Shown here: piece by piece, positions 6,001-52,973 of the stretch | Layout: each line of letters starts with the position of its first letter | Numbering within the stretch: position 1 is the stretch's first letter | Assembly: GCA_033819885.1 (NCBI GenBank) | Contig: JAQYUZ010000016.1 | Span: 124,001 to 188,000 of the forward strand | DNA: 64,000 nucleotides | Source of the DNA: Microbotryomycetes sp. JL201 | Lineage: Eukaryota > Basidiomycota > Microbotryomycetes | Direction of reading: 5' to 3' | Notes under the pieces: model-generated | Database searches by the model: none | Seen by the model: only the letters and a program-made list of their open reading frames with translations | What the model was told of the DNA's origin: nothing | Position numbers and translations under genes: made by a program

Positions 6001-8218
6001 GCGACAAGGCTGAAGGTGGTGCAAATGGTTCCGCGCCCGTGCCCGTCCCTCAGCCGCAGATGACGAATCCGAACGGGCCTCGTCACCCGTGGGAGCACGT
6101 TGATGAGATTATGGCAATCCTCAAAACCGCGTTCCCGTTGCTCGCGCTCTCAATGGAGATGATTGTTGACCAGATCTCGACTCGATTCAAGCCAACTCCA
6201 GAGGAGGACATTTACCGTCTGATCAGCGCGTTGCTTGCGGATTCGCTACAGCAGTTCATTGCACGCGCAAGTCAGCCGCAGGACGATGGCATGTTGTCAC
6301 AAGCCACTGTGGCCAATATCGCTCGCTTCGCAGAAAATTTGCATCCGACCGGCATTAAAGTGAGCAATATCCCTCGTCGTGAGAGTGTACCGCTGACTTC
6401 TAAACCTGGCTTGACAGAACTCGTTCGAGCAAGATTTCCTCAAGTCGAATCCGACGCTACGAGAATATGTTCAACGCCTGCAGCTGTGGCGAGACCGGTA
6501 CGAGACATTACTCAATAAGAAGGCGAAGCGATCGAACTTGGAAGCCGTCAGCCATTGGCTCGTCGAGTTCCAGTATCAAAAGTTTGACGAGATCGAGGTG
6601 CCCGGGCAGTATCTCAAGGCGAGTTGCTCGTCAGACTTCGGGGAGGACTCAGAGCTGACGACAAAGCAAATGCACTTTGCAGCACGAGGACAGCAACACA
6701 AACTTTGTGCGCATCAGCCACTTTGCCAACAAGTTTGATGTCACGAGGTCCCATGGCGTCTACTTCCGCCGCCTCACGATCCATGGCCACGACGGTAGCA
6801 CGCATAGCTTTGCGATCCAAGTGCCATCCGTGCGCACCTCTCGCCGAGAAGAACGTATCATGCAGCTCTTCCGCATGCTCAACTGGTGAGGGAACTCGCC
6901 GGAAGCTTTGGGATCTTGAAGTGCTGACATCGTCTCGACTTTGAACAGCCCCCTTATGACTCGCAAAGAGAGTCGTAAACGCAACTTGTCGTTCAATATC
7001 CCAATCGTTGTGCCCCTTGCGCCTGGCGTTCGTCTCTTTGAGAACGATGCTTCAATCACGAGCTTACAAGATATGTTTGAGCAACATTGCGAGATCGTCG
7101 GCATCAAGAAGGAAGACCCATTGCTCGCTCACACGGAGCGAGTCCGCGCTTTGCACAGGCAAGACCCACCTCTAGGCGTGAGTTGTGTGCGGTTCACCTT
7201 GAGCTGGCCGCACCATTCTGATCTCATCCTGTCAGCGCCCGGAACTATGGAATGGTCGGCAAGAGATTGCCGAAGAAATTGCCTACAAGATGGTGCCTGA
7301 CGATATCCTCAAAAAAGTCAGTCGCGCGCACTCTTCGCGATCGAATCGGCTTGAACGCTGACGAATTCTGTGGGTGCTAGTTCATGACCAAGACGATGGT
7401 CAGCCCGAGCGACGTGTGGCACATTCGCAAACACCTCACGCAACAGATGGCGTCATTCATTTTCATGACGTACATTATGAGCATGGGTGCGCGCCACCCG
7501 AACCGTATCCACATCTCTCGGACAACAGGCAAACTCTTTACTTCGGACATGCTGCCTTGTGAGCGGCGGACGCATTTCTCAGCTTTGACGCATAAAGAAG
7601 CTGACCTTGTGGCGTCGTCTCCTCCCGCGTCTGTTGCAGCAATCACACCCAGCAAGCCCGAGTTTGTCAACGCCGAAGCTGTGCCTTTCAGGTTCACGCC
7701 AAATTTCCAGCGCTTCATTACTCCTGTCGGCACTGAGGGTCTGCTTACGAGCTCAATGATGGCGATCGCGCGGTGTTTGACAGAGTCAGAGGTCAGTCCG
7801 GAGTCGATTGACGAATTCCAAGAGGGCGCGCCACATCAATGACTGACTGCTGCGTCACCATGCCTCTACACAGTCTGCACTCGAGCACCGGCTGAGCTTG
7901 TTCATACGGGAGGAAGTGCTCGTTTGGGCTCAAATGTCAAAGACGGACCCACGTGGCAACCTGCGAGAGCTCGTGTCCAACAATGTTGACGCCGTCGCTC
8001 GACGTGCCAAAGTCATGTCTTGCAAGATGGAGCGAGAAAAGGTGGGTTTCTGGCCATTCCGGAATGAGAGTCGAACTGGCTGCAAATTTACCGATACTCT
8101 CTTGCAGCCGCCGAGTGCCACGATCCCCGTCAATCAAAGCATTCTCGAATTGTTGTTGCAGGCGACGTCTGCACAAAACCTGAGCCGCATGGAGCCGACT
8201 TGGCAACCTTGGCTGTAA
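1..8218 (+). CDS. TRA1: Tra1/TRRAP, SAGA and NuA4 activator-binding subunit (5' end outside window)
   Basis: Giant PIKK-family scaffold that links transcription activators to the SAGA and NuA4 acetyltransferase complexes in the nucleus. Exons: 1-660, 721-4199, 4258-4405, 4465-4481, 4540-5803, 5874-6359, 6418-6618, 6683-6885, 6949-7177, 7236-7316, 7381-7558, 7640-7791, 7874-8041, 8108-8218. They give 2458 residues of the C-terminal part; the reading frame is open at base 1. The helical-repeat and FAT regions are followed by the kinase-like domain and a FATC end finishing MEPTWQPWL. Where active PIKKs have GDRHxxN and DFG, this protein reads GARHPNR and SDML, so it is a pseudokinase, as known for Tra1. 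Exon 4 is only 17 nt and the intron 6619-6682 starts with GC. Introns 7559-7639 and 8042-8107 leave the frame open if unspliced but interrupt conserved sequence. Confidence 0.95.
6619..6682 (+). other. GC-AG intron in TRA1
   Basis: The donor reads AAG|GCGAGT and the acceptor TTTGCAG. Phase 0 on both sides joins PGQYLK to [11 protein letters not shown], matching Tra1 relatives. No GT donor in the vicinity keeps the frame. Confidence 0.85.
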
Positions 8219-8696
8219 GCAATTGCCGCTCGCCTGCTCGCAACGGGAAACTGGCGCTTTCTCGGCTTGTGTTTTCGTTTTGTATTTGTGCGCGTTGAAA
8301 TAGCTGCTGCTGTAGAGATAGATTTGAAAAAGATTTGTAACGATGCATATGACAGTACGTTCTGATTGCGTGCCAGAGTGTTGTTCCGGTTAGGATTCTA
8401 ACCGGAAGTGCTGCGAACGCGCGGTGCGCGTTTGGTGGCTGCCAGCTTGCGAGCGGTCGTGGCAACAACTACGAATCCGAGCCTCACCTAAGCAGACGCT
8501 CAATTTCGGGAGGTCCAATCCGACCCGGCTAGGCCAAACATACACGACGACTGTCGATAGCTCGATCGGCGGCCGCACGAGAGTGCAAGCCTACGCACTT
8601 GCAAGACGACCAAAAGTAGTGCGTCGATGGTCCGTGTGACAAGACTGTAGCACTTTGGAACGCAGCAGAGCTTGGTCGCTAGTGTCTCGCGAACGG
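8219..8696. other. Intergenic region upstream of the Zn2Cys6 gene
   Basis: About 480 bp between the TRA1 stop and the ATG of the transcription factor gene, which lies on the same strand. I find no gene here. It holds the perfect palindrome at 8384-8407, reported separately. An upstream untranslated exon cannot be excluded. Confidence 0.7.
8384..8407. promoter_or_regulatory. 24-bp perfect inverted repeat containing CGG-N12-CCG
   Basis: Two 10-bp arms, TTCCGGTTAG and its exact complement CTAACCGGAA, flank GATT. The arms place CGG and CCG triplets 12 bp apart. Zn2Cys6 dimers are known to bind inverted CGG triplets. The site lies about 290 bp upstream of a Zn2Cys6 gene, so an autoregulatory operator is a reasonable inference. 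A stem-loop at the 3' end of TRA1 transcripts is the alternative. Confidence 0.5.
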
Positions 8697-11600
8697 ATGC
8701 CGTTCAAAGTGGTGCAGTCGTCGAGTGGCCCGAGCGTTGCCAGTTTGGCTGCCGCCGCGTCCGCAGCCGCCGCCGCCGCCGCCGTTCGAGGCTCGACTCA
8801 GTTCGTCTCGCGCCCGGCCGAGTACTCGTCAGAGTCGAGCGCCGCGACGAGCCCTGGAGTGACTGGTGGCACGCCTGCCATCATCATTACCCCGTCCGAT
8901 TGGACGAGGATGCGCGCGACCACTTCCGCGGGTGCGGCAGCAGCTGGCGCTGGAGGTGCGCACGCCTATAGCACCACAAGCTCGCAACACCAGCAGCAGT
9001 ACGCGTACGCAGACGAGCATGACATGCTCGATGACGACGATGATGACATCGACGACGACGACGACGACGACGGGAGCGAGTACGACGCCAACAACGCGAA
9101 CGGTGGCACCGGCCAAGGCCACGGCGGCATACCCGTCTCTGGCTCGGCGTCAGCCGGCGGGCATCACGCTTCACTTGCCAACGTACACCAGCAGCGTCTC
9201 GGCGGCCCCGGGCAGGCAGATACGTCGGCGCCAAGCTCGTCCAACGGCGCGGGCTCGGGCGCGGACACGCCAAAGAAGAAGCAGACGCGCGGCAGTCGCG
9301 CATGCACAGTCTGTCGCAAACTCAAGATGCGATGCGTTGGAGCAGAAGACCCGCCCTGCAAGCGTTGCAGGAACAGTGGCCAGCAGGTCAGTCCATCTCT
9401 TTCTTTGCGCTCGCAGCTGGGCTCTGGCCCGCCTGCGCGATCATTGGCTCGGCCGTCTCGGGTTCCTCGGCCTACGTGTCCACGGCGCTGGGATCGCAAC
9501 ATGGACATGAACTTCTCGTGCAATTTGCACACATCCTCTCACGCTCCCCCTGGACTGGTCACTGACTTCTCAACTGTGTACAGTGTATATTTGAAGAGTC
9601 GCAGCGAGGGCGACGATCAAACCGCAAGACAGACATGATGGCAAAGTCGCTCAAACGCCTAGAATCCACTCTTGAAACTGTTCTCAAATCGATATCGAAT
9701 CCAGGCGCGCTCGCGTCGTCAGCCGGATTGCTCTCTGACCCCAATGTCAGACCCCTCGTACAAAACGCGCTCGGCGGAATAGAGGGCTTATCTGTCGACA
9801 GCTCTTCAGAGTCGCCTCTGCAAAGGTCGTCCGCGGGAGGAGCAGGACCGGCATTGACAGCGACAGACGACACTCCGCTGCCTTCATTGCACTCGTCCGT
9901 TCTGCCGAGTCTGAGGGACGGCGCTAGGTACGAAATTGGTGGTGGAGCGATCGCGTCACCGGATGCCGTCGCGAGCAATTCTAGCGCGCCACAGCGCGGC
10001 GAAGCCCTGTCAACGAGCTCGGCAGCAGGCCCGGGCTCGAACGGCAAGTCGATGGAATGGTCCGGACCGAGAAGTGAACGAACGCGTAGAGACGACAGTC
10101 CGAGATTGCACAGTCTGCCAGACAATACCCTGAACCCGTGAGTTTGCCCTTCCAATTTCCCGATGGAATGAGTCAGGTCGCTAACACCGTGCTCCTCTTC
10201 ACAGTCTGGGATTACTCGCCGAGTATGTCAAAGTTGTACTCTATCCGCATTTCAGGCCATTGATCCATGCTCGCTTTGCAGAGCTTCACTTCAAAATACA
10301 AGAAAACGCGCCGTCACTTTGAACGACGTCTTAGAGACAGCAAACGGCTTGCGTGATACTGACGAGAGAGAAGTAAAGCGCTCAAGGCTAGGCATGGGTA
10401 ATCCGAGCTACTTTCAGCCAGGTCCAATGAATAGTATGCCTTCAATCCCCGCTTGCTTGACGTCCAAAGAGGTCTAAACTTGCGCTCAACCCAGTCCTTC
10501 CGCTGCGGCGGATCGTTTTCGAGCAACGGATGCCGCCTGCCCTGCTTGAAGAAAAGATTCTGTCCGTCGAAGAGGTTGTCGAGCTCTTCTCAATTTTTTT
10601 CGAGCACTGCCACCGGCACGCGCCTTTCTTGGATCCCGACATTCATACACCTGCGACGACAGGCTCTCGCAGTCCATTCTTGTTCACTTGCAGTGAGTCG
10701 TCTCGCTATCCTTTGCTCTGAAGACAAAGATCTTACAAAGACATGAGGTAGTCTGTACTGTGGCCGCACGCTTCTATAAGAAGCGGACTGATGACCTCTA
10801 CCGCAAGTGTTTGCGCATTGCGAAAAAGATTGCATTCGACGCAATGACAAAAGGCTACAAATCAACCGAGATCTGCCAAGGTTTTTTGCTTTTATGCGGT
10901 TGGAACCAGCCTGCCGAACGGTTCGAGGAAGAGCGCACTTGTCAGTCATTGCGGCCTTTGGGCGATCTCAGGAGATGCTCACCCGGCCGTGGTACTGTTG
11001 CAGACCAATTCAGTGGTATCGCAATCCGCATGGCGACAGATTTGAACTTGCATCGAAAGACGTTGACTGTCTTGCCAGACGACGTCAGCGCAGAGACGAA
11101 AACTTTGTATCAGCGCGAGATCATCAATCGGGAACGAACATGGATCTACTGCTACATTTGCGATCGCAGCACGTCGACGCAGATGGGAAAGCCGTTCTCA
11201 ATCCCGAAAGAGGATTTCATTCTGCGGAGTGCGCGAACATGGTACAAAGAATCCAGCGCTTCCAGAACTGATGGTGGATTGTGCGGGATGGTCGAGATGC
11301 ATCGAATTGTCGTGAGTTTGCAGCCGTCACTTAATCAACACTGCGCCAAGGCCTGATCTTGACCGTTGCAGGGCCGCATGATCGACACGCTGTATTCGGA
11401 CACTCGATCTGTGTCGGGGCTCAACACAAACTTGGATTACAACATTCTCAGTGAGCCTGCCAACGCAAATACCAAAGACACGATTTGACCGACTGCTCAT
11501 AATTCAGTGCGAGCGTTCCTGAGTCAACTGGATCAATGGCGTGAGGATTGGACCGAGTTGCACGTCCTCGAAGCCAATCTCGGACAAGAAGGCGGCCGGA

Positions 11601-12777: not shown

Positions 12778-13024
12778 AGCGGCAACTCGCCAGCAATTCT
12801 CAAAAGATCAAAATGAAATGTACTAGAAGAGCTTCCCGAAATCGGTGACGTAGTATCGTTCGTCCGAGTGTTGTAAAACGTGTTTCGTTATTCAAGACCG
12901 CTTTTAGGAAACGTTCGTATGCAACGGTGCGAAACGGATGCAAACAAAGGACTAAGCTACAGTCACGCAGTGGGTGGAAGGTCGTATCGAGTCAGTTTTG
13001 AAAGCGTATTAACATTTGTCGTGT

Positions 13025-14996
13025 TCATGACGTCGGCTTGGTGGTGATTTTGATGCCTGCCGCTCTCGCGACCGACAAGATCTTTTCAGCTTGCAGCAAC
13101 TGTGAAATCGTACAGAGTCAGGATTTCGGCGCTTTGGGATATTTGAACAAGAGCGATGAGACACTCGCCATGGGTGCGTCAATCATGGATGTCGAACCGT
13201 CCTCGGCTTGTAAGCCATATGCGCCGGCGCCTGCTCCCGACGCTGCGTCGTACTGAGACAGCATTTGAACTGCCCTGGCGATCTCTGCAAGTCCGAAGAG
13301 ACACGAAACGAAGGAGTCAGCTTGGAGCACTGAGGGCTTGTACGATCCGAAGTGACTAGCCTTTCTCAGAGGGTGTGAACGCCCTTTGGATGGTCGCTAC
13401 CTGGGCCGGATGTATCGCTTGCTGTTCGAAAATATCGTCAGTGCTCGTCTCCTATCGTCTTCTTCTGGCTTCTCTGAGCTTTTCGTTGCGCACTTTACCA
13501 TCAAAACCGAGCCTCCTGCCTTCTTGACTTTCGTTAAGCAGTCCATCTTCGGCACCTTCGCCTTTGTATGCAGTTCTCACGAGGTCAATAGCGCCGAGAC
13601 CAAATGCTTTTGCAACTGTGACGACAGAGCTCCTGGCAAACAACATTTCCTGGCGAGAATCTGTTCGAACGAGGTTCGAGGCAGCGCAATAATCTTCGGC
13701 GGCAAACTGTAGTCGAGAACATTGAGAACGGCGCCTATCACTTTGTCGCCGGGAAAATGACGCTCACCAATAATGCTTCCGTTCTTGTCGAGCACGTGGC
13801 GATCTGTGAAGCAGACTTCTAGGTCAACAGAGAACGACCCACGTCGAGCAATTTTGATGCGAACCTCTTTCAGATTGATGATGGCGAGCGGACTCTCGAT
13901 ACTGGCAATGATCCTCAACGAGTCTCTGGTCTCTTCGAGAGCGTGCTCGTCGATGGCTCGGTCCACTTTGAGCACGTCCTCGGCACAATTGACTTTGGGT
14001 AGCACAAGACCGTCAAGGTGATTCGCTTTGAGCTATAAGACCGACAACAAGGGTTGAATTTAGCCAAACTGTAATCGGAATCGACTCGATTATGGCTCAC
14101 AATAACCTCAAGGTCGTCCTCGCCGAGCTCATCAGTGTTGATCCTGACAAAGAGACGGCTCGCTGTTTCGCCTACGCTCTGCAAGCTCGCTGACCATCAG
14201 TTCTCGTAGTGAAATGCTAGAAGCTTGAAAAACAAATTTACCTGCAGAACGCTAACGCCACCCAAAAGTGATCAGCTGGCGCACGGCATTTTCTGCCTCG
14301 GGTGTCGACTCACTCGAAAACGTTTCGCCTCGCTTCTCCTTTTTGTCCTGCTGCCACAGAGTCCTGTGTTAATACGTGTCAGCTCCGTGCAGCTTGCTCA
14401 GCCGGACACAAAGGCAAAAGTGAAGGCGCCAGACTGACTTCGAGGTCCAGTATGAGAGCGTCTGGCACGTCCATGGCCAGTTTACCATTCTTTGAAGAAG
14501 ACGACGAGACGTGTGCAAGTGCTTTTTTGAGCATTTTGAGGTTGCTGCCAGGCACGTACAGTAACGCTCTCGTGGGTTTCACGACAGCACGAGACGAGCT
14601 GGGATTCGAACGAGGCTTGAGTTCAGAGTTTGAAGGAGATTTCTGTCCGTTGCGAGCGTGTGTACCTCGATCAGAACCGTTGTCGGCGTCGAGAGAGGCT
14701 GTTGCGTCATTGATCCCGAAGACGGCTGATCTTGACGGTCCTGCAGTCGATGGGCCCACTTTGCCGTCAACAGACGATTCTGTACCTAATTTCTGTTCCT
14801 GCCGGGCCGGAACTGAAGTGAAAGGCCTGTGAATTGTCACAAACGAGCGTCGAGCAAGCGCAGGCGAGGGCGACGACAGAGCTGTTGCTCTCGCGATCGA
14901 CGAAACATGCACGTCATGCACCGCCACTCTGTGAGACCTTGAGATTAAAGAGCTCGCAGCTGCTGCGCATTGGCGACATGTTGATGCTCCGCGCAT
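13025..14996 (-). CDS. Citramalyl-CoA lyase-like protein (CLYBL; HpcH/HpaI aldolase/citrate lyase beta family)
   Basis: Mg-dependent C-C lyase of the CitE/CLYBL family; the mitochondrial members cleave citramalyl-CoA. Exons (minus): 14996-14439, 14363-14314, 14251-14242, 14178-14101, 14032-13865, 13803-13768, 13706-13494, 13421-13361, 13284-13169, 13099-13025; 454 residues. Family motifs are TRALLYVPGSNLKML, ILDLEDSVA, VRINTDE, VLPKVNCAEDV, LLFAAEDYC, RTDSRQEMLFARS and KQAIHPAQ. The first ~60 residues are rich in Arg, Ser and Ala with few acids and look like a mitochondrial presequence. An in-frame ATG at 15080 would add 28 residues and leave only about 14 bp to the MDM34 stop. One exon is just 10 nt and two introns (13360-13285, 13168-13100) start with GC. 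Family membership is firm; the exact substrate is inferred. Confidence 0.9.
13100..13168 (-). other. GC-AG intron in the CLYBL-like gene
   Basis: Read on the minus strand the donor is ATG|GCGAGT and the acceptor TTCACAG. It joins STSMIDAPM to LLQAEKILSVARAAG in phase 0. The nearby GT would shift the frame into a stop. Confidence 0.85.
13285..13360 (-). other. GC-AG intron in the CLYBL-like gene
   Basis: Read on the minus strand the donor is AAAG|GCTAGT and the acceptor ACTTGCAG. It joins FTPSEK to EIARAVQML in phase 1, as the family requires. Confidence 0.75.
14242..14251 (-). other. 10-nt micro-exon of the CLYBL-like gene
   Basis: Read on the minus strand the exon is CGTTCTGCAG. It lies between a 62-nt intron (GTGAGT to GTTAG) and a 63-nt intron (GTAAAT to TTGCAG). 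It supplies D-V-L-Q between EARRNVF and SVGETASRLF. Including it makes the whole coding sequence a multiple of three. The alternative is a single 137-nt intron ending at GCAGAG, which skips these residues and also keeps the frame. Confidence 0.7.
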
Positions 14997-15094
14997 CTTG
15001 CAGCTCGGAGAGCACGAGCGAGCAAGCGAACAATTCTCAAAAGACGAGTCGTGACAACAACAGTAACAAGCAACGCGCATCCAGATCACATGAG

Positions 15095-17991
15095 CTATAC
15101 AAAACCTCCCACGACAGGCCCGCCTGTCATTTTGCGCTTCATCTTTTCAATCAAGTGTGCAGTCGACGGGAAATAATCACTGAGCTCGCTCAGAGCCAGA
15201 TTGCTGTTTGCGTATCCCAAGCCTGCATGCTGACTCGACAGACCCGTACCGGACCTCGCGTCGAGTGAGAGAGCTCGGACATGTCTCTTGTTACCGGCAC
15301 TGGTCGTTCGAGTTCGAGGTGGCGCCAACGAGCTACTTCGTGTAGAACTTGCTGGTATTCCTCTCGTCAACAATGACGATCTTCGGGACCACCTTCCTCC
15401 ATCATTCAAGTCTGGCTCGTGAGAACCCGAACCGGCTCTGCTTGAAGACGCCACAACAGAGCGTCCGTCCGAATTGGGTCGGGTCGTGCTCGTTCCGTCG
15501 GAGGATACGGGAGCAACTGCCGAACCAATTCTGTACACGCGTTTTCTCTTTGCTTTGACAGGATCGCCGCTTGAGCCAACGCCACCACTGCTTGTTGAAC
15601 ATTGTTTCGAATCGACAATGGCTCCAAGCCGAGGCGCGGTCAGCCTCGCAAGCGTTCCTCCCGCGCTGGTCGAACTGAAACCTCGATTGAGTACGTGGGG
15701 ACTGCTTCGCGCAGTGAAATGCTCATGGCTTCTCGTAAACGGACTCAAAGTCTGATTCGAGTGAGTCAATGTCGCCAGATGAGCACAAGAATCGTTCAAG
15801 TTGGGGTTGATCGTGATGCCCAAATCATCTTCGTAAGAAGAGTGATTCAAAACAGATGAAGGTGACCTCGACAACAAATCAATCGGGTCTGGTCGAGGCT
15901 TCGGAAACACTTCGTGCTCTGGCTCTGGTTCTGGGTCGGGAGCCTCTGACGGGCTGTGCGTCACATCGTCCAACGGGGAAGCCGACAAGTCGTCGCCTTT
16001 CGCGGCCGTCGAGAAATGGGAAAGTCCTGACCGATGAAACTGATGAGACCCCCTGATCGCGTGTGAATGACTGGTCGAATGTGTAGAATTCTGTCGCGAG
16101 AGAGTCGGCGCAGACACAAAAGAGGGCGTTTTGGACGGCATCCTCGCGAATGGAAAGTGTGGTGTCGAGGTGCCTGATCCGGCACGTGAATGAGATGCGA
16201 AATGCTCGAGCCGGTCGTCCTGAAACTGCCGATATGTCGGACTGCCGAGCAGCTCACCTATCGTTGACGTGGTTGACTCTGGCACGTGAGCAGTCATAGT
16301 AGAGGGGCTTCCATGTGCCGATAATGAGCTATTGCTGACCGCGCGAGTTCTCATTTGAGATTGAGTGTGCAAGATGCGCGGTCGCGTGATCGTTCCGCCG
16401 CCCACAGCCGGAATCGTTTCCAAGGCGCCCCGGAATCCGGTCTTGAAATCAGTCTCGCTCGCTTCACTCACGCGCCCGAGACCTAAGTACGACCGCCGCC
16501 TTGCGTGTCGGTCATCGAACGCGTCGACATCGGGGACTGGCTCGGCCAGCTCGCTATGGAGATCCATCTCTTCGACGAAATCGGGCTCGAACCAGTCTTG
16601 TTTGTCTTGCATATCATCATCGTGCAGTACTTCTTGTTGAGGTGGTCCGGGGTCCAGTACGCCGCCAAGGCCACGAGCAGCTGTTCCACTCTGCACCAGA
16701 CGCTGGTACTGACCAAATCCCGCATGAGTCGGGATAGAATCTGGCCTCAGGCCGTATGTCGGGTCGTACGATTCAATTGACTCTGGCACACTTTGCGGCT
16801 CTGGCTTGATCGTCTGGCTCGATGTTGTGCGCTGTTTGGTCGGGGAGCTGAATACAGATCGTTTACCTTGCGAGCTTTTGCGGTACAGAGGGCGGGTTTC
16901 GACTTGGTCGTGCATCGAGAATGTCGTGTCGACATCGGATCCAACAGAGACGCTCTCGGCACCTAGACTCATCGTGCTCATCCTCGTCGTCAGCCGCCGG
17001 TCGTGTCCGGCCTTTGCGCCGTCATCTCTCATATATGCCGTTCTCGTTTGGATTTTGGCATCTCTGGAGAAACCTTGAGGGGCGAGACTGCCTTTTTTAG
17101 GCAGAGCAGCAGCCGTCTCTTCACTGGCCGTCTTGACTTCGCCCGACAACCATTTCTGACTCAGGCGATGAATCACTGATGGCAGGTCGCTCCTGAACGC
17201 TTCCCTCAATTGGGCTTCAATCTCCGTTTGGATAAATCCGGCGACAGATTCGACGCCATCAAATGACGACGAGACGTTGACGGATTCGAGAGGGTCATTC
17301 TTGAAAACGAGTGTGATACCCTTCTGTCGAGATACGACGAGGACAACGATCGCTCTCAGAGACAATGAAGACAACCTCAACGTCATTGGCACCACGAGCG
17401 GTGCGGCCGCGAACAGGATTCTGGGGGCGCCAAGGATGTCTAGAGACGGTCGAGGGACGTTGAGCGGGTTTGCCTGAGTGCGATCTTGTTAGCGTTGCAA
17501 GGCGAGCGCGCAGGCTCATGTCAGAGCGCACTTGAACTTTTGTCTGAAGCACAATGTAGGCATTGCCAGCATATGTCAAGCGAAAGATGCCCCGGAATCG
17601 GTCCGTCGAGAGGTCCCCGATCTCAAGGATCTCTAGTTCCGGTGGCTATTGGACCGGTAGATATTAGCTTTGGAGTCAGGCGAGTGTGCTTGCGACTTGC
17701 GATCGTGCCCATATTGAGCTCTTTGACTTCGATGCGGTCAGCGATAATCGGAGGCTTCTCGCCCTTGTTGAGAGCCTGTGCGAGTACACTAGCATGCGAT
17801 TAGCATTCAATAGAAGTATGTTTTTCTGACCGCAGCGTAACAGGCGTCTTCAAGAATGTGCGGCGACAGACAATGCCGGAGACTGCCTGGCGTTTGTGTA
17901 CCGGCAAGAGACAGCTCACCTGAGCCAGCATTTCCTTGGCGTCCGTGTAAAAGTCCTCGCTGAACGTCGGCCATTCAAAGTTAAACGACAT
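15095..17991 (-). CDS. MDM34: Mdm34, ERMES mitochondrial outer-membrane subunit
   Basis: Component of the ER-mitochondria encounter structure, which tethers the two organelles and moves phospholipids. Exons (minus): 17991-17920, 17775-17701, 17645-17532, 17473-15095; 879 residues. The start [18 protein letters not shown] is the conserved Mdm34 N-terminus. The SMP lipid-binding domain follows to about residue 200, with [41 protein letters not shown] and [18 protein letters not shown]. The remaining ~650 residues are Ser/Thr/Arg-rich and low complexity, ending [14 protein letters not shown]. Intron 17700-17646 uses a GCAAGT donor. The first intron is long for this window (144 nt). MET6 is transcribed divergently. 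Confidence 0.95.
17646..17700 (-). other. GC-AG intron in MDM34
   Basis: On the minus strand the donor is ATC|GCAAGT and the acceptor AATAG. It joins ELNMGTI to [12 protein letters not shown] in phase 0, exactly the conserved Mdm34 sequence. Confidence 0.9.
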
Positions 17992-19359: not shown

Positions 19360-19372
19360 TCCTTTGCACAAC

Positions 19373-30118: not shown

Positions 30119-33100
30119 ATGGTCGAGCACGAGCATCGCACCCCTGCACTCGGTCAAGACCACGCAGACAGCCGACCACCGCTCGAGCCGGACGATAAAG
30201 TCTTTCTCGGGGACTACGCCGCCTTTTTTGAACGCACAGGGCCTCTGACAGTTAGTCGACGCAACAAGTCTCGTTCAACACACTCGCTCATACAGTTGTG
30301 GGACTGACAGGTTCGTGCAACAGGTCAAGGAGCAAGTCCAGTTCAGCACAATGTGGATGCACACTTGCAAGGCGGCCAGAAAGTGCGAGCGAGACATGGC
30401 CGACAATGTGGCGCCGTCGGAACGACGCTTTCAACGCGAGCTCGAACAACGCAACTTTGTCAGGAAGCTGACCTTCAGACTAGAGAAGCAAGTGTTGAGA
30501 CTGCTGCATGCCTCAACAAATAGACAATCGACACAGAGGCTGGAGACATTCCTGGCCAGACTGAACCAGGTCAGCGCCTCTTCACCAGCTCGAAAACGCT
30601 GAATGGCTGAGAGTCGTGCCGGATTGTGTAGATACAGTACCACACGCTCCACAACGACTTTGATCGGAATGCAGAAGGACTCGAAGTCGCTACTGAGGCT
30701 GAACGAACAACGGTCAGCGATTCAGAAGACGAAATCGTTTTTATAGAACAGCTGTCACATTCGGCTTCGCCAGCAGCTGAGGCAGATGCCGCTTCATGGG
30801 CTTCAGCATCGACGACGTCGACAAAGCTCTCACCGACTGTCAGAGAGTTCGAGACGGATTCATTCGCACCCGACCCAGCAAACGCAAATGGGGGAACGAG
30901 ACAAGAATCGCCGGAGCAGCCTCTCAACTCGAAGCGGAAACGTCAAGCCAAATCTCTGCAGTATGCGAGTCAGATCAAACGAAAGACGCACGTCACTCGC
31001 TCTGGGATCAGCGATCGACTGAGCGGGGACATGAGAACAAAGGTAGAGAGAGCATTGACGGCATTGGAGAAGCCTTGTGAGTCTGTTGGCGACTCGAAGC
31101 ATAAACGCTTGCCTCTGACCTTTGAACAGCGGACAATCCGTTTCACGAGGTCCACCTGTACTCGACGCATGGCTTGGTTCCCCCGGAAAATACGCAACAT
31201 GGCATTAAATTTGCCCTGGACGAGTTCTCGCTGTACGATTCTGGTCAAATGGTTGACCTGCTACGTATCGACAATTTGGTCAAGGCTCATCAAGGCCAGT
31301 ACGAGCTACATGGGATAGCCAATCTGTATTGGGACCCCGAAGAAGCGACGGACGAAGCGCTAGACAGCACGAATATCGCAATCGGATGGAAACGCGTCAT
31401 TGTCTCTGGTTTTGACATTGTACGTCTCAAGCCCGAGACGGACGCGCTGTGGATCGAAACGAGGTACACAAATTACCGTCTGCTTAGGCCGGCGGATGGG
31501 TACGATCGATACGTCGAACGAGCAAGATTGTTCCTGAACTACTTTGCATTCTGTCGATCAAGACATGTACGAGGACAAATGAGAGCCGGACCAGCTGTCA
31601 CTGTCGAGCAATTCAACCGCGCTCTGGCAGCCGAGGATGCGCAAGATTCGACGAATGACCTCGGTCCGGCGTGGGATATGGGTTCCAGAGCTCTCAAGGA
31701 ACTTGATGCTGATGCTCGCTACAAGCTAGCATATATGCTCCACAAGTATCTTCCAGACACCCCATTGTAAGCCAAGATCAACCGTCTTTGCCAAAGTTGT
31801 TAACCACAATCTCGTTCAAAGCGTCACACCCGTCGTGTACGACCTCGTTGCTCCCTTCTTGCGTCAGGGCACAGTCAGGACTTTTGAAAATCACGATCCG
31901 AACGAGGCCGTCCACCGAAGAGATCGAGACGAGAAAGCGCTGAAATGGTACCACGCCGTGGTAGATAGTCTTGCCGGATTCACAATGACTGTCGGAGCGA
32001 CAATCGCGGGTCGTCAAATGGAGAATACGTTGCCTTTCGGGACTGGTCGCAAGATTGAAGTGTATCACGAGGCGCGCATCCGCGGGACATGGTTCAAGTA
32101 AGCACTTCCTTCCAGCAATTCTAGAACGTTTCGATTCTGATGGATCGATGTCTATCCAGAGCCGGCGACTTCATTCTCGTCGCTGGTTCGTATGGAGAGC
32201 CGCATGAAGTCGAGCGCGAATCTGCAGTCAAGACTCCCCTTGACGATGTTGAAGCTTTCCCGAGGGTAGGCATGCCAGTGCCTCCGGTCGACAGCATGCG
32301 TGAGAAGGCGAACTCTCCTCAGCCTTGGTACGTGTTCCGGATTGGAAACCACTTGCGTCTTTGTACGGCGGGACTGTCTCGGGGCAAGATGGCGCGGTCA
32401 TCGGCCCGGCGCAGGTCTCTTGGTTTCATGTTACTTGTCGGAGCATCTCACACCTGTCGTTCTTGCTTTGGCAAAACGACTTGTCAACCGGCTCGGGTGG
32501 CAACGTTGACTGTAGCTGCGAGACGAAGGATGCTAAATGCGAGTGCCCCACTCTACGCCCGTCCCGATACGATGGCTTGAAGGTGCACCGCCGCTCTTGC
32601 ACCCTATCTTTGACGACCTGTGCCCTGCAATCTGGCGCGGGCGGTTTCTTGAGCAGCCTTCGTTGACGGCTGCTTCGGGCGCAGGTTTGGTCGCATTATC
32701 TATTTCTATCGCACAATCAAGAAGAATGCAGGCAGAGGGCCCCTACAGGTCCACATCACTTGGTTCCTGCACCGTCGCTCTAGTCCGTTGTCGAACGTCG
32801 CTTCTCCAAGAGCGCTCGCGTACGTGGACCATTGCGAGACGGTCACGGCTACCGCGATCGCGGCCAAGATCGACATTGCCAGAGTCGACGTCGGACAGAA
32901 ACCTCCTGAAGAGGGTTTGTACTTCGAGTGAGGGCCAAGTATGAAGCAAGAAACACTCGCAGCTGACCTGTGGCTGGACAGCTACTACTGGGACAAGACA
33001 GATGGCTCTTGGCGCGATTTTGCCACCTTGATGGATGGTAAAAATTTCAGTGCATGCGACCAATACCACGTGCCACAATGCGTCGGTTGCGAGCGACGCC

Positions 33101-37126: not shown

Positions 37127-37180
37127 AGATCGTTTGGGAAATCTTAGGCTTCGCAAGCCCATTCGGTTGTCAATTCTACT

Positions 37181-41309: not shown

Positions 41310-43097
41310 ATGGATGCGAGTGCTCGCTTGGCACGCCACGGCTTCCTTCCTCTCCGTCCAACACTGTCCTCTGCGCCACTCAGCTCGTTCGCTAGGGCGA
41401 CTGAGCAGCATCCGACATTGCCTATCATGGCAGCAGTCACCGATCAACACGCTCCCGGCGCCCCGCTGTCGTCGGCAACGGCCACCTTGACAGGAGAACC
41501 AAACCAAGAGCTTCAACCAGGGCAACAGGCACCCGTCGACTCTGATGCAAACAATACTGCTCCAGGTACGTCTAAGGTGGCTGTCTGTGCCGAAGAGAGA
41601 CGGGGCTTGGCTAATTTCAAAACGGTCAACCTCGCATCAAACACGGCTCTTATAGGCTTGGGAAGGTACGCAGCGCAGCCATTCGTGATATGGTCTTGGG
41701 AGCTTTCAAGGGCTCGGGACTGACTACAGGTGTTGCACGACAGGCTCAAGCTGCTCGACCAACTGCTCGCTCTCTGGATCCTGCTCGCAATGGCAGTCGG
41801 CATCATCATTGGTCGCTTCAGCGACGCGAGTGAAGTCCTCGAAAAGGTCAAATTCGTTGACGTGTCGCTTCCACTCGGTTCGTCGCACCGGGGCCTGACC
41901 TGCTCGACGCCACTAACGAAACCTCGTTCGACAGCGATCGCCTTGTGCTTGATGATGTATCCGATTCTGTGTCGCGTCGATCTGACGGAAATCGGCATTT
42001 TGTTCAAGCGCAAGTCGCTCCTCATCGACCTCGGAGTCTCGCTGTTCATCAACTGGATCTTTGCGCCTCTCCTCATGCTCGGACTCGCTTGGGCATTCCT
42101 CCCAGACAAACAAGAGCTAAGAGACGGCTTGATCCTCGTCGGGATTGCTAGGTGTATTGCCATGGTCAGTGGCGTCGAACAGGATCCTTGCAGCAAAGAC
42201 TTAAGCTTCTTCCCGTGCTCAGGTTCTTGTGTGGACAGACATCGCTGGAGGAGATATCAACTGCAAGTGGCTGTGTGCTCTCGCATGAATGAGCAGCTGC
42301 TGACACCTCTGTTGTCCGCAGATTGCGCCGTCCTTGTCGCGGTCAACTCAGTGCTACAAATCGTGCTCTACTCGCCCCTCGCTATTCTCTTCATCGACGT
42401 TATGGGACCATCTCGACTTGAATCTTCTGGCGTCAACTTTTCGTACGATACAGTCGCCCGTTCCGTTGCCGCCTTCTTGGGAATCCCCCTTGGCGCGGCC
42501 CTCTTGACGCGTGGCCTCTTCTATGCCTTCAAGAAGCAAGAATTCTTCCACAAGACGTTCTTGCCCTTGATTGGTCCTTTGTCGCTCATCTCGCTCTTGT
42601 TTACGACATTGATCATTTTTGCTGCCCAAGGCAAACAAGTGGTCAAGTCAATCACCGACGTCTTGCGCGTCATCGCTCCTTTGCTCGTCTACTTCTTAAT
42701 CATGTTTTTCCTCGTGCTGTGGCTGTGCTACAAATCAAAGATGAGCTATGGCAGGTCGGCGAGTCAAACTTTTACTGGCGCTAGCAACAATTTCGAGGTG
42801 AGTCGAGGCGAGCCAGAGCTTTTGTTGAAGCGTTCAATTGCGCTGACTGGATATTCGCATGTGCAGCTGGCTATCGCGGTAGCAGTTGCGTCCTATGGCG
42901 CTGATTCGCCACAAGCTCTGGCAGCAACTGTAGGCCCTCTGGTTGAAGTACCTGTCCTTGTCACTCTGGCGTATCTCATGGTGTGGTGGAGGAAGAAGCA
43001 GAGATGGGATGTCGATGAAGCTGGTCGACCATGCAGCGCAACTGCGAGCAGTGGCAGATCGTCAAACGCCGAGACTAAAACAGGCGACTTCGTATAG
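41310..43097 (+). CDS. ACR3: Acr3 arsenite efflux transporter
   Basis: Plasma-membrane arsenite/antimonite:proton antiporter of the BART superfamily. Exons: 41310-41665, 41744-41877, 41935-42164, 42223-42262, 42322-42797, 42867-43097; 488 residues. About ten hydrophobic segments are visible, starting LLDQLLALWILLAMAVGIII. Family motifs are ALCLMMYPILCRVDLTEIG, the essential Cys region GIARCIAMVLVWTDIAGGD, YCAVLVAVNSVLQIVLYSP, and the end motif SNNFELAIAVAVASYG with TVGPLVEVPVLV. A hydrophilic N-terminal tail of ~110 residues precedes the first helix; a second in-frame ATG at 41427 would shorten it. Intron 42263-42321 has a GCAAGT donor. No other arsenic gene is nearby. Confidence 0.94.
42263..42321 (+). 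other. GC-AG intron in ACR3
   Basis: Donor AACT|GCAAGT, acceptor GTCCGCAG. It joins GGDIN and YCAVLVAVNS, the conserved Acr3 sequence, in phase 1. Confidence 0.9.
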
Positions 43098-45393: not shown

Positions 45394-46950
45394 ATGACTG
45401 CCGCGCGCGTCTCTCGTTCAGTCGTACAGAGCGTCCTCTCACGTGAGACGGCAGAGGGTGCTGGAGCTGTCGTCAGGCGATCAATCGGAACGTGAGCACC
45501 ACAATGTCTACAAACAGACTGAACGCATTTCTAACAGCTTGGTCACGCTGCTCAGAAATGCACTCAGGTCGCTCACGCCATTCCTGATGCTCGATCATTT
45601 CAACGTGAGCGCTTCGATGAGACTCTTTGTCATCTAGATATTGCAGCAGCTTACACCATCACACACACTAGGTGGCTCCCGGGGCCGGCTTCCCTGTATT
45701 TAGATTTCGATTTGTGCTCGCCACAGCCTCGTCGCTAATCTTCTCCGAGTAGGATCACCCTCACCGAGGCATGACTACTTTAACGTACATGTTGACCGGC
45801 GAGTTTCAACATGAAGATTTTGCGGGTCACAAAGGTGGGCCTGACCCAGTGTCTGGATCATTGGCGCAATCGCTTACCAGACGTATCAGGCTTGATTGGC
45901 CCTGGCGACCTTCAATTCATGATTGTAAGCCAAGGAAGAGCGAATAGGCATGCGAACACGAACAACTCAGCTGATGCTTGCGCACACTTCAAAGGCTGGG
46001 AAAGGAATCGTAAGCTTGAAATATGAAAATTGCGCTGGGAGTTCGATCTCTGATCTGATGTGATGCAGGTACACGCCGAAATGCCCGTTCATAAGCCAGG
46101 AGGGGACAACCCCACCGGACTCCAGCTGTGAGCATGCTGATTTTCCTCTAAACAAACAGGATCTTGCGCTAATACAGTCTTGCGCTAGGTGGATAGATTT
46201 GCCCAAAGAGCACAAGCTGACGGACCCGTCGTATCAAGAACTGCGAGCCGATCAAATTCCTTCCGTCCACCCTGCGGACGGCGTGCTCGTCAAAGTCATC
46301 TGCGGGACTGCCGAAGGCAACGATTCGGAAGGCAAGATCTCTTCGCCCGTGCGACCCTTGGGCGGCTGCTGGTTCCTTGACGTCCAATTTTCCAAACGAG
46401 GCGCACAATTTTGGCAAACTATTCCTCAAGGATGGAACGCCTTCACGTACATTCTAGAGGGAGACGTCAAGCACGGTTCGGAAGGGTCCTCCCTGCCCGT
46501 TAAAACCTTCCACACCACAGTCTTGACGAATGAGAGCAACGAGACGGGTGTGTTGCTTGAGGCTGCATCGGACAAGGCGAGGATTGTCATTGTCGCAGGC
46601 GAGCCGCTCAACCAAAACATTGTGCAACATGGTAAGCGGGTCGAGGCTGCATCCGAAGATCAATATATCTGACAATCAGATTACGTCCTTGTGTCCAGGA
46701 CCCTTCGTAATGGCAAGTTGCCGTGCTTGCGTTGCTGATTTAAAGCGCTGGCGTTTGACCTGTTTTCTTTTCCGACCGCAGACCAGCCGTGATGGTATTC
46801 AGGAAGCATTCCAAGACTACATGACTGGCAAGAATGGTTTTGAAAAGGCACACAGCTGGAAATCAGACATTGGCAAGCACGTGAGTACTCGTTCGCAAAG
46901 TCGTTCAAAGCCGTTAGTGACGGTAGCATGTGCACGCTCAGATGATGTGA
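45394..46950 (+). CDS. Pirin family cupin protein
   Basis: Iron-binding bicupin of the pirin family, in other organisms a nuclear cofactor or quercetinase. Exons: 45394-45491, 45568-45604, 45672-45695, 45753-45834, 45890-45924, 45995-46009, 46069-46127, 46189-46631, 46699-46712, 46782-46880, 46942-46950; 304 residues. The N-terminal cupin has SLTPFLMLDHFNVAPGAGF, the metal-ligand pair DHPHRGMTT and the second pair VHAEMP, so all four ligands are kept. The C-terminal cupin contains FWQTIPQGWNAFTYILEGD. The start at MTAARVSRSVVQ fits the family. Exons of 24, 15 and 14 nt are needed to restore conserved sequence. Intron 46713-46781 has a GCAAGT donor. The last three codons (short 61-nt final intron) are the least certain part. 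Confidence 0.88.
45995..46009 (+). other. 15-nt micro-exon of pirin
   Basis: GCTGGGAAAGGAATC encodes A-G-K-G-I. It restores LQFMI-AGKGI-VHAEMP, the conserved pirin ligand loop. Flanking introns are 70 nt (GTAAGC to AAAG) and 59 nt (GTAAGC to GCAG). Confidence 0.85.
46699..46712 (+). other. 14-nt micro-exon of pirin
   Basis: GACCCTTCGTAATG supplies the end of Gly plus P-F-V-M before TSRDGIQEAF. It lies between a 67-nt GT-AG intron and a 69-nt GC-AG intron. Confidence 0.85.
46713..46781 (+). other. GC-AG intron in pirin
   Basis: Donor ATG|GCAAGT, acceptor GACCGCAG. It joins GPFVM to TSRDGIQEAFQDY, matching the pirin family, in phase 0. Confidence 0.88.
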
Positions 46951-47312: not shown

Positions 47313-48152
47313 ATGTCTTCACACCACGTCGACGCAAACTGCATCTTTTGCAAAATCATCAAAGGTGAGCTCAGTCTTGACATCCCTATTGAATGATCAG
47401 CCCAGAACTGATGACGGTGATCCGATTGCGAAGGCGAGATCCCTTCGTTCAAGTTGATCGAAACGGACAAGACGCAAGTTTATGTCGACTCTTGCACCTT
47501 TTTAAGACGCTGATGATGTCTATCGCTCATCAATCTGCCTCAAAAAAAAATCTAGGTTCTCGTTCTTTGACATCGGACCGCTCTCGAAAGGCCATGCGCT
47601 CGTCATTCCTAAACGTGAGAGAGCATCGCCTTTCAAAAGAGATGATTGACTATTGACATGTTGAGAGTGTGGCTCCACGGTCAGATCACGGAGCCAAGTT
47701 GCACGACATTCCAGATGATTCATTGACAGAACTGCTGCCGATCGCCAAAAAGATTGCTCAAGCTGTCGGAGCGACAGACTACAATATTCTGCAGGCGAGT
47801 CAGACTTTCGTCAAACGATCTACACCAGATGACGGGCCTGATTGGGTCTATCCCTAATGCAGAACAATGGCAGGATTGCTCATCAAGAAGTTGACGTAAG
47901 TCTGGCGGCTGCCGCCAGCGACGAAGCGAACAGGCAACTGACTCGAGGCTCGGTCGATTTAGCACGTGCACGTCCACAGTGAGCAACGATGTAATTTGTT
48001 GAATACATCTGTTATGTCTGACGTGTTCGACATCAGTGATCCCAAAGCCAAAGGCAGGCGACGACGAAGGCTTGGTCGTTGGTTGGCCCGCTCAGAAAGC
48101 CAACATGGAAGAGCTCAAGGCGTTTGTGGAGGAAATCAAAAACAAATTGTAG
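47313..48152 (+). CDS. HNT1: HIT family nucleotide hydrolase (Hint/HNT1 type)
   Basis: Purine-nucleoside phosphoramidase of the histidine-triad family. Exons: 47313-47364, 47434-47473, 47556-47614, 47685-47794, 47863-47895, 47963-47978, 48037-48152; 141 residues, normal for Hint proteins. Motifs in order: DANCIFCKIIKGEIPSFKLI, FSFFDIGPLSKGHALVIPK, HHGAKLHDIPDD, NNGRIAHQEVD and the active-site triad HVHVHMIPKPKAGDD. The 16-nt sixth exon encodes the five residues HVHVH. Introns 47474-47555 and 47795-47862 start with GC (GCAAGT and GCGAGT). The gene converges on the holocytochrome c synthase gene with about 100 bp between stops. Confidence 0.93.
47474..47555 (+). other. GC-AG intron in the HIT gene
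   Basis: Donor GAC|GCAAGT, acceptor AAATCTAG. It joins LIETDKT and FSFFDIGPLSKG in phase 2. No GT site in the preceding exon has the required phase. Confidence 0.88.
47795..47862 (+). other. GC-AG intron in the HIT gene
   Basis: Donor CAG|GCGAGT, acceptor CTAATGCAG. It joins DYNILQ to NNGRIAHQ, the conserved Hint sequence, in phase 0. Confidence 0.9.
47963..47978 (+). other. 16-nt micro-exon encoding the HIT catalytic motif
   Basis: CACGTGCACGTCCACA encodes H-V-H-V-H plus one base of Met. Flanking introns are 67 nt (GTAAGT to TTTAG) and 58 nt (GTGAGC to CATCAG). Confidence 0.9.
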
Positions 48153-48254
48153 AGAAACACCTTCTTCCGCGTTGTATCGGATCGAAAACGTTTTGTGACA
48201 ACATACCATGCGACAGAAGAATGAGTGAGATAGTGAAAAAAAAAGGGCGAAAGC

Positions 48255-49289: not shown

Positions 49290-49498
49290 GATGGCAAGTG
49301 GGCAACAAAGATCGCCGAGCGACGATTGGGTATCATTAAAAGATGAAGAAGAAGGTAAAAACAAAAACAAGCGACGGTCGAACATGCGCATGGCTTGCTG
49401 TTGAAGATGGTATGACAGCCTGTCTCGGTCGACTGCGAAACAAACACGGAGTCGCAACCTTGCGCCGGGGTGAGCTTTCTGCCCGTCTCGCGTACGCC
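49290..49498. promoter_or_regulatory. Compact divergent promoter CYC3 (-) / Aurora (+)
   Basis: 209 bp separate two divergent start codons. Both promoters and 5' leaders must lie here. No specific element is identified. Confidence 0.5.
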
Positions 49499-51583
49499 AT
49501 GACGTCGCGCATCCTCAGTCGCGCATCCAACATCGAGAACAGGCTCGACAACTTTCATTTGCATGAGGACGATGACGGTCGCCGAGGTCAGCAGCATCCT
49601 GTCGCCGCGAAACCCACACTGGTCAGTCAACCAAAGCCCGGTCAAGCACAAGCACAGCAGGGCAAAGTGAGCCCATCGAGGAAGCGGCGCTGCAATGCTT
49701 GAAACGCGTCACTGACGCGCTGCGCTTTCATAGTTCATGCCGGTGCGGTCCTCGGCCGTCGGCACGAGTGGATCATCAGCCAACATTCCGCTCTCGCAAC
49801 GCGCACCGTCGCTCAAACTCGCGACAGCATCCTCAGCGGGCATCAGACCATCTAACGTAACGTCACATACCGCCCCGAACCCGTCATCGTCCCAGCAGCA
49901 GCAACAACAGAAGGCCAGGCTTGGCCAGTCAGCCTCAGCGGGCGTCGGTTCAAGCGCATTGCCATCAAAATTTCAGGGCACATTGAACCACCACGATGCA
50001 AATCCTTCGAGACAAACGAACGCTACCGCCAACAGCTTGCGGCCAGGACAACCCTCAGCAAAACAGACAACGTCTACGACAAGCTCGAGTAGCACCTCCA
50101 GCACGTCAGCTCACCAGGCTCAACTGAGCCTCAACAGCCAAGGAGCACTCACAGGGGATATCGGTTCGTATGACGGGGGCTTTGAGCGTGAGATCGGCAA
50201 TGGCGAAAAAGTAGTCGTCTCTAGCGACTCGGCAAAGCTGCTCGCCATGGACTCGAGCGTTGGGCCGTCAGTCAATCATTGACAGATCGATCCCGATATA
50301 TACCGCTGACTTTGGGCTTGCACTGACAGGGCGGCACGCACCCAACCGTTCTCGCTGACTTCGTTCGAGATCGGCAAACCGCTTGGCAAGGGCAAATTCG
50401 GTCGCGTGTATATGGCCCGAACAAAAGTCGAACCACACTACATCGTCGCGCTCAAGTGCTTGTTCAAGGAGGAACTCGTCAAGGCAAAGGTCGAAAAGCA
50501 GCTCAGGCGAGAGATTGAGATCCAGAGTCACTTGGCGTGAGCAGCGCCTGTCCCCCGTTCAAGCAAGCTCACGGCTGAAACTTGCATGCTTGACAGTCAT
50601 CCCAACATTCTGCGCCTTTACGGATACTTTGTACGGCCCTGCAAAGCTTATTCCACAACACGTGAACTGACATAGCGCTTGCGCCTTTGTTTCAGCACGA
50701 CGAGAAGCGGATCTTCTTAATGCTAGAATTTGCAGGCAAGGGCGAGCTGTACAAGCAGCTGCACAGGTCTCACCACTTTAGCGAGAAGCGAAGCAGCCGG
50801 GTGAGCCCATCACGCAAACTGGCCTGTTGTATGATGAGCTGACTCGCGATTGTGTCATAGTATATTGCTCAGATGGCCGATGCACTACAATATTTGCATC
50901 GGAAACACGTCATCCACAGAGATATCAAGCCCGAGAACTTGTTGCTCGGGATCGACGGCGAGCTCAAAATCGGTGATTTCGGCTGGAGCGTGCACGCGCC
51001 AGGCAACAGGCAAGTAGTTGACGTCCACTCGTGCTGTGATACGCTGTGCTGAGCACCTCTCACTGTTCAGACGAACAACCTTGTGCGGCACGCTTGATTA
51101 CCTGCCGCCAGAGATGGTGGAAGGTCGCGACCACTCTGAAAAAGTCGACCTATGGGCACTGGGTGTCTTGACATACGAATTTCTGATTGGCGTGCCTCCG
51201 TTCGAGGATCTGAGTGGCTACAACGGTAGGAGATCGGACGAGGTTTTATCGTGCCTTGCACTTCTGACGAGATGATGTTTACAGCGACATATAAACGAAT
51301 CTCGAAAGTTGACCTCAAATTTCCTACGGACGGAAGCGCGCCAAGCCTAGAAGCCCAAGACTTGATTAGACGTGTGAGCCTTTCGAACTTTCTTTTAAAA
51401 GCGGTCCGAGAGACCGATCGGTCTGACTTTACCCCACGTCAGCTGTTGAGACATGAACCGAACCAACGGCTTCCCCTCGACCAAGTCTTGCAACATCCGT
51501 GGATCCTGAAATACAAGAAGAAGACGTCGACAAGTTCGGGTGGAGCTGGGGGACCGGGAATGGCCAGGCCTTCAAGGGTCTGA
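49499..51583 (+). CDS. IPL1: Aurora kinase (Ipl1-like)
   Basis: Mitotic Ser/Thr kinase of the chromosomal passenger complex. Exons: 49499-49666, 49734-50266, 50330-50536, 50597-50630, 50696-50800, 50861-51009, 51071-51225, 51285-51373, 51443-51583; 526 residues. A low-complexity Ser/Thr/Gln N-terminal region starts [19 protein letters not shown]. The kinase domain begins near [20 protein letters not shown]. It has the ATP-binding Lys in [38 protein letters not shown] with the activation-loop Thr, and [10 protein letters not shown]. The end motif is [10 protein letters not shown]. The exon 49499-49666 is joined by a GTGAGC donor to exon 2. Intron 51010-51070 in the activation loop uses a GCAAGT donor. 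Confidence 0.95.
51010..51070 (+). other. GC-AG intron in the Aurora activation loop
   Basis: Donor AACAG|GCAAGT, acceptor TGTTCAG. It joins SVHAPGN and [11 protein letters not shown] in phase 2, rebuilding the conserved activation loop. Confidence 0.9.
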
Positions 51584-51881
51584 GGACGTGCGATCGCCGC
51601 ATTTGATTTGGTTTTATGATCGGGATCGTTTTCATGTTGCTTCGTTGTCGCCTCAGTTGTAAAATGTTGCTCATCTTTCAACAACGAAAAGTTTGAGAGC
51701 TCGAGCAGCGCCGACATTGCCACGTTAACCGTTGTATACACGAGCACGAAACCTCGACCCCGATCCACTCGTGTTTCGGCAAGTACTTTGAAAATCAAAG
51801 CCAGGCTGGCCCGAGCTCTCGCTCGTCCAATTCTCCGGTCACTTTGAAGCCAACGACCTATAGCAACGGACGTGTCAAAGG

Positions 51882-52973
51882 ATGACGGAACCATCGACAC
51901 ACTCTCGTGCGCCTAAACGTCGCCGCCGCAGCAGTACGCACAGCTCCGACAGCTGCAGCAGTCACTCGTCAAGTTGCAGCGCATGTTGGCTGCCAGCATC
52001 GGGTCAAGCTACAATGGACAGTGACGTTATTGTTGGACCTTCAACAAAGTCAGCCAGGTCGGCGTAAGCTCGCTCTTCTTGTCTGCTGCTCTCTCGTTCT
52101 GCGAGGCGCAATGTTGAGCCAGAAGCTAATGTTTGACAAAACCGGTCTACATGGAACGCGCGATGTTGTATATCCGCGCAGCTGTTCATCGACGAAATGG
52201 AAATGCACAATTTCGCCGACCTGTTCAGGAACGCCAGGCGGCGTGTCGTTTTCAACGTTCGAAGCCTACTCTAGCCACTTGCTCCAGTTCCACGAATTCA
52301 TTTGTCGAGCTCGGACACAGAGGAACGATCCGAGCTTGCAAAGAAATTTCGGACGCGACAAGATGGAAGTAGGATCTGCATCCCGATTGAAAGTAGCGAA
52401 TTTAGGCGCCAGATCGGAAGAGGAACAGTCGGGAGACATCATCGAATGCTCAAAGGTATTTCCAAACAAGAGGATGCTCGAACTGCACCAAAGGGAATTC
52501 CATGACCCTGTTTGGCAACTCGGGTTGGAGCGGAACGAACGAGTGGCAAGTCTTTCTCGCGCAATACAAATCATGACGACGATACATGAGCTGATATTGC
52601 TCGGGCAATTTTTTCATGCACCTTGCGACGCTTACAGTACGAGTGTTTCGAAGCGTCATGTGGTCGTAAATTTCGAACGCCAAAAAAGCGGAGACTGCAC
52701 CTGGTTGACAAGCATTCGTACCCTCGAAATTACTTTTTCAACGTCGTTGTCAATGGTCTTGACGGACTGAGCGAGAATGGTGATGGCAGCATGCTCATTA
52801 AGCCGAGGGGTGGCAACAAACCAGAAGACGACCACGCCGTCTCGCGAGGCGCTTCGGCGCAAAGAATCCCAGTCACGAAGGAGTTGTCAGAGGTAGAGGG
52901 GATGATGGGAAAGCTGGCGCTCAAAGAGCTTGTCCCTCGTCAAGTACTTAGAAAAACGAGAGGTGTCACGTGA
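51882..52973 (+). CDS. ZNF511-like C2H2 zinc-finger protein
   Basis: Homologue of the ZNF511 family; molecular role unclear. Exons: 51882-52063, 52182-52545, 52638-52973; 293 residues. After a Ser/Cys-rich N-terminus comes a first finger KCTISPTC with FEAYSSHLLQFHEFIC. A second finger follows (ECSKVFPNKRMLELHQREFHD), then YECFEASCGRKFRTPKKRR with LHLVDKHSYPRNYFF, the diagnostic ZNF511 end. The Cys pair of the second finger appears to be split by about 50 inserted residues. The last intron is best read with a GCAAGT donor at 52546; a GT three bases earlier (52543) also keeps the frame but fits the consensus poorly. The first intron (118 nt) is longer than usual, so this part is less certain. 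Confidence 0.78.
52546..52637 (+). other. Probable GC-AG intron in the ZNF511-like gene
   Basis: Donor GAGTG|GCAAGT, acceptor CGCTTACAG. It joins LERNERV to YECFEASCGRKF in phase 0. The competing donor GTGGCA at 52543 would remove one Val. Confidence 0.65.

Follow-up and report, generated by a model that had tools for sequence, protein, structure and literature searches.

In the yeast Microbotryomycetes sp. JL201, introns whose first two bases are GC, where GT is near-universal, are found genome-wide as far as we sampled, and the sequence makes it very probable that these are ordinary U2-type introns with a C at the second base, tolerated in a strong donor context. The observation began with a window of 64,000 nucleotides from a single contig, for which an original prediction had named ten introns starting with GC. 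Reading the letters at all ten coordinates bore this out: each starts with GC and ends with AG on a consistent strand, the donors are GCAAGT (six), GCGAGT (three) and GCTAGT (one) as had been tallied, and we likewise count eight genes that hold them.

GC-AG introns in the window

The introns are listed below with the evidence at each junction, a slash marking the position of the intron in the protein (CLYBL, citrate lyase beta-like).

6619..6682, + strand: GC-AG intron, Tra1 gene; GCGAGT; PDB alignment without a gap at GQYLK/HEDSN; gene-model call
13285..13360, - strand: GC-AG intron, CLYBL gene; GCTAGT; PDB alignment without a gap at FTPSEK/EIARA; gene-model call
13100..13168, - strand: GC-AG intron, CLYBL-like gene; GCGAGT; PDB alignment without a junction gap at SMIDAPM/LLQAEK, with a five-residue gap just upstream; insert of a public JL221 protein starts Ala-Ser here
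17646..17700, - strand: GC-AG intron, Mdm34 gene; GCAAGT; junction alignment without a gap to five relatives
42263..42321, + strand: GC-AG intron, ACR3-type (SBF family) transporter gene; GCAAGT; extent of a junction-spanning Pfam SBF match only, 116 residues against 115 profile positions
46713..46781, + strand: GC-AG intron, pirin gene; GCAAGT; PDB alignment without a gap at GPFVM/TSRDG
47474..47555, + strand: GC-AG intron, HNT1 gene; GCAAGT; PDB alignment without a gap at LIETDKT/FSFFD; public JL201 model reads 47506-47555 as protein
47795..47862, + strand: GC-AG intron, HNT1 gene; GCGAGT; PDB alignment without a gap at NILQ/NNGRIAHQ; same junction in public JL201 and NB124-2 proteins
51010..51070, + strand: GC-AG intron, Aurora kinase gene; GCAAGT; PDB alignment without a gap in the activation loop
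52546..52637, + strand: possible GC-AG intron, C2H2-like gene; GCAAGT; weak zf-C2H2 match below cut-off; gene not called by the model

Protein evidence anchors nine of the ten, seven by residue alignment to solved proteins, one by alignment to relatives and one by how far a Pfam match extends; searches of the PDB with the start of Mdm34 and with the ACR3 model returned no match. The earlier statement that each intron is fixed by conserved protein on both sides is thus upheld for nine, that at 42263 by Pfam extent only, while the donor of the tenth remains ambiguous between GC and GT as read from its sequence. There, as had also been anticipated, a plausible GT alternative exists: an in-frame GTGGCA donor lies three bases upstream and differs in outcome by one codon. 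Counting the anchored introns against the GT introns called by our gene model, the GC share of the window is 9 of about 107 (98 GT calls plus nine anchored GC), as compared to 10 of about 112 by the original count.

GC donors across the genome

To the window we added twenty further stretches of this genome, 10 kb each (L002-L021), giving 264 kb, of which 10.1 kb is N, and analyzed them with a two-strand gene-structure model that was self-trained on sequence without reference to annotation. In a form of the model that leaves the first two donor bases unscored, 41 GC and 253 GT introns were called, as compared to a mean of 10.5 and a maximum of 19 for the other fourteen dinucleotides; this neutral form favours GC, because a donor must be strong at +3 to +6 to be called. 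A two-class form, in which GT and GC have their own weights, called 468 GT and 50 GC introns, divided into 98 and 12 for the window and 370 and 38 elsewhere. Among the ten listed introns the two-class form calls nine and the neutral form eight. Protein thus anchors nine of the 12 GC calls in the window. Three further GC calls there were left out of the window count: that at 9358 is false, as codons of a Zn2Cys6 finger would be lost to it, and those at 32539 and 54756 are unsupported.

Admitting GC as a second class raised the model's score over GT alone by 233, whereas the six decoy dinucleotides tried in its place gained 16 to 71. Since decoys whose weights are retrained absorb between 4 and 8% of calls, as seen with six dinucleotides, we relied instead on fixed-weight decoys, in which the fourteen other dinucleotides were each run at the GC weights; these gave 2 to 12 calls with a mean of 6.6. 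With all sixteen dinucleotides allowed together, the model called 435 GT introns, 45 GC introns and 1 to 8 of each other kind. Similarly, when individual donors were forbidden, a loss of at least 4 was incurred by 73 GT and 19 GC calls and by a mean of 0.9 for the others. The AC decoys in the window and the twenty stretches were somewhat high, with 12 calls of which 10 had an RAGY context (mean 2.4 for the other decoys), an excess that we take for noise. Subtracting the mean decoy count leaves about 43 of the 50 GC calls, or a share of about 8.5%; resampling of the stretches outside the window, before any decoy correction, placed the raw share between 6.7 and 12.1%. At least one of the 50 GC calls is false (9358), and about seven false calls are predicted from the decoys.

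Counts made outside of the model were less informative. Whole-genome counts of donor, branch site and acceptor patterns against a backward control came to 748/267 for GCAAGT, 426/171 for GTAAGT and 146/200 for GAAAGT. Their direction agrees with the model, but GCAAGT is a common word, so these raw counts are confounded and the share was not based on them. A model-free signature of branch site plus acceptor followed 16 of the 216 GCAAGT words and 17 of the 230 GCGAGT words (7% each), with medians of 4.5% and 6%, respectively, over all sixteen starts, and followed GTAAGT and GTGAGT in 33% and 30% of cases. The signal after GC is faint because GCRAGT words are common and dilute the real introns; the resulting excess of about 10 agrees only loosely with the 30 GCRAGT calls.

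For calibration against protein families, the 38 GC calls from the added stretches were all searched against Pfam in pieces no longer than 120 residues, alongside 19 random GT calls and 20 random decoy calls as controls. Junction-spanning matches above the cut-off were obtained for 9 of 38 GC, 8 of 19 GT and 3 of 20 decoy calls, and two further GC calls had such matches below it; these are small samples, and the evidence is one of match extents rather than residue alignments. Restricting the comparison to matches whose lengths in protein and profile differ by three or less left 7 of 38 GC calls (Tcf25, Vps26, short-chain dehydrogenase, SNARE, NIF phosphatase, and Ssl1 twice), 4 of 19 GT calls (PMT, CDC50, HMG-CoA synthase and GOST) and 0 of 20 decoys. 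Scaling 4/19 to the 370 GT calls, the close rule implies a GC share of 7 in about 85, or about 8%, and the loose rule 9 in about 165, or about 5.5%, GC calls faring worse than GT calls here.

These comparisons also bear on the possibility that the GC calls are artefacts of the model, with true donors at nearby GT dinucleotides or with introns misplaced altogether. The decoy calls, the one GC call that is clearly wrong, the in-frame GT at the tenth site and the lower yield of GC calls in the loose Pfam test are what such an account would lead one to expect. It does not, however, accommodate the eight window junctions that align gap-free to solved or related proteins, the ninth that lies in a close-length Pfam match, or the seven junctions outside the window in close-length matches where decoys had none, and we judge it very unlikely. 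Taking the model and the Pfam calibration together, we estimate from sequence that GC donors make up 6 to 9% of introns in the genome as far as it was sampled. A genome-wide extent of the GC donors, which the original prediction had posed as a condition, is supported by calls across the window and the added sequence, at a share to be set against a fungal average of about 1%.

A strong donor context and ordinary U2-type features

GC-AG introns generally have a strong remaining donor, and the introns described herein conform to this. At +4 to +6 all 16 protein-anchored GC donors carry AGT, ten of them being GCAAGT, five GCGAGT and one GCTAGT; among the 468 GT calls, 162 have this ending. Mismatches at +3 to +6 are absent from 30 of 50 GC donors as compared to 84 of 468 GT donors (Fisher p 8e-10), in agreement with the earlier proposal that strong pairing at these positions compensates for the C. 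The ratio of GC to GT donors changes sharply with the sequence at +3 to +6, being 18:16 for AAGT, 12:68 for GAGT, 5:31 for AAGC, 2:68 for GAGC and 1:73 for CAGT in the two-class run, and 17:11, 11:42, 4:23, 4:52 and 0:57, respectively, in the neutral run. Such steep dependence on context, along with a GC content of only about 55% in the window, counts against the idea that high genomic GC content by itself turns GT donors into GC donors. A link of this kind has been published for three algae of about 66 to 70% GC (PMC3033335); for the present genome we find it most improbable.

In their remaining features the GC introns resemble U2-type introns. Their median length, 61.5 as compared to 62 for GT introns, is the same and is typical of fungi. 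The best branch site is an exact CTGAC in 27 of the 50 GC calls and close to it in most others, although this is not independent evidence, since the model itself scores the branch site. The branch site learned from the window and the twenty stretches is itself mostly CTGAC. U12 donors are long, conserved and ATCCTT-like, whereas the donors found here are GCRAGT or GCTAGT. The GC and AG ends (10 of 10), a donor context stronger than that of GT introns and the U2-type branch site and fungal length all agree with the U2-type GC-AG class.

The alga Micromonas pusilla has introners. Its high GC-AG share, reported in PMC3033335, would fit a mobile, introner-like intron family with a GC donor as the source of such introns, in which case many near-identical introns would be expected. 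Instead, an all-against-all blastn comparison of the 518 called introns, with E values up to 1e-3, returned two pairs with matches of 17 to 19 bases, neither of which included a GC intron, and a mobile source is scarcely credible for this yeast.

The account that we favour is one of ordinary U2-type introns, for which a T-to-C change at +2 has probably been tolerated repeatedly wherever the remaining pairing with U1 and U6 could carry an A-C mismatch. C at +2 would then be one of several single mismatches to U1 that are allowed in this lineage, others being C at +3, +4 and +6, and a further permissive factor may raise the share beyond what other fungi have. GTCAGT is the commonest GT donor in the window and the twenty stretches (73 of 468). 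It is also possible, if rather doubtful, that donors in this lineage are kept close to an optimal strength, with about one weak point against U1, such that GC represents a tuning of strength rather than damage. Among AAGT donors GC is as common as GT, and perfect GTAAGT was observed 16 times where independent positions predict 46. Likewise, GT donors with 0, 1, 2 and 3 mismatches at +3 to +6 numbered 84, 280, 90 and 14 as compared to 125, 208, 112 and 22 expected for independent positions, a pattern that can arise in part because very weak donors escape the model.

U1, U6 and U1C

A lineage-specific splicing part that reads GC donors directly, such as a U1 variant that pairs with C at +2 or a change in U1C, Luc7 or Prp8, would be another way to account for their frequency. 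The only U1 found (L001, 1501 onward) scores 31 bits, below Rfam's cut-off, and begins AUACUUACCUUG, with the canonical 5′ end AUACUUACCU. No second copy of U1 was detected in the genome by DNA similarity, nor any U1 in which base 7 is altered so as to pair with C, as snRNA-compensated donors would have, although a strongly diverged U1 would escape these searches. Four genome sites match ATACTTGCCTKG, a U1 start carrying G as its seventh base, and their surroundings are without an RNA family match. The U6 box is the canonical ACAGAGA. The U6 gene, at L022:1501-1683 (G000:C63:52479-52661), is also interrupted beside this box by a GT-AG intron about 67 bases long, ACAGAGAA/GTAAGA...CATTAG/GATTAGC; introns in U6 are known in fungi (PMC5832005).

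Residues 1 to 40 of U1C align without gaps to U1C of solved structures, and the finger is nearly all canonical. Residue 12, however, is His (L024), at a position that adjoins the donor-contacting region. Among the best 120 homologues listed, 115 have the motif at this residue, which is Val-Tyr in 68, Val-Phe in 39, another form in 6 and Val-His in 2, the last being those of NB124-2 and Leucosporidium creatinivorum, both Microbotryomycetes. The genome also holds matches to Luc7, Prp8, the METTL16 family and SNRNP27. With canonical sequence at the U1 5′ end, in the U6 box and over most of the U1C finger, we see no matching snRNA change. The U1 or U6 setting tolerant of C at +2 that the original prediction had put forward therefore finds no backing in the one U1, below cut-off as it is, or in U6, and the inspection of U1 and U1C that it had called for showed an ordinary U1 end and a rare His in U1C. 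That His favours a changed part; the canonical U1 and the four sites lacking an RNA family match weigh against one, as does the strong context kept by the GC donors, which would be unnecessary if C had a reader of its own. On balance we consider a changed part unlikely, and ordinary introns with a tolerated C the better account.

Consequences for public annotation

The public JL201 HNT1 protein is encoded letter for letter by the window DNA, and a search with HNT1 gave relatives from Microbotryomycetes. The protein differs from the spliced HNT1 described here only in residues 18 to 34; these are read from 47506-47555, inside the GC intron at 47474-47555. Over window 47313-47555 the public model thus omits the conserved exon coding GEIPSFKLIETDKT and takes part of a GC intron as protein, yet it splices the second GC intron. 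Similarly, a public Mdm34-lyase protein of JL221 has an insert starting with Ala-Ser exactly at the 13100 site, the expected product of read-through at a GCNAGY donor. Gene finders that disfavour GC donors can thus misread genes here, as in these two proteins. In a separate observation, our gene model fuses Mdm34 to the CLYBL-like gene (window 13025-17991), and the public JL221 protein P0122 is fused likewise; the fusion is probably an annotation artefact.

Comparison with known GC-AG introns

GC-AG introns reportedly occur in Neurospora, in work attributed to Rep et al. 2006. Over 130 fungal genomes their average share is 1.009% (PMC7072748); the introns described herein are alike in being U2-type with C at +2 and an AG acceptor, but their share is several times higher. 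In two other basidiomycetous yeasts the characterised bglA gene has a GC-AG intron, one among 18 introns in Hamamotoa singularis and one among 21 in Rhodotorula minuta (PMC9142197); these are single genes rather than genome shares. We found no other fungal genome with a high GC-AG share in the open-licence literature. Shares far above 1% are given for the algae Aureococcus (39.6%), Micromonas pusilla (22.2%) and Chlorella (7.7%), but no genome in that study has a higher GC content than these three, at 65.9 to 69.5%, as compared to about 55% for our window (PMC3033335). This small-genome relative of the red yeasts, with its moderate GC content, an estimated 6 to 9% of GC donors, canonical pairing ends of U1 and U6 and a nearly canonical U1C finger, offers a clean natural case in which to ask to what extent donor context may pay for the second intron base. 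Since GC-AG introns are already known, this yeast is a strong new case of them rather than a new kind of intron.
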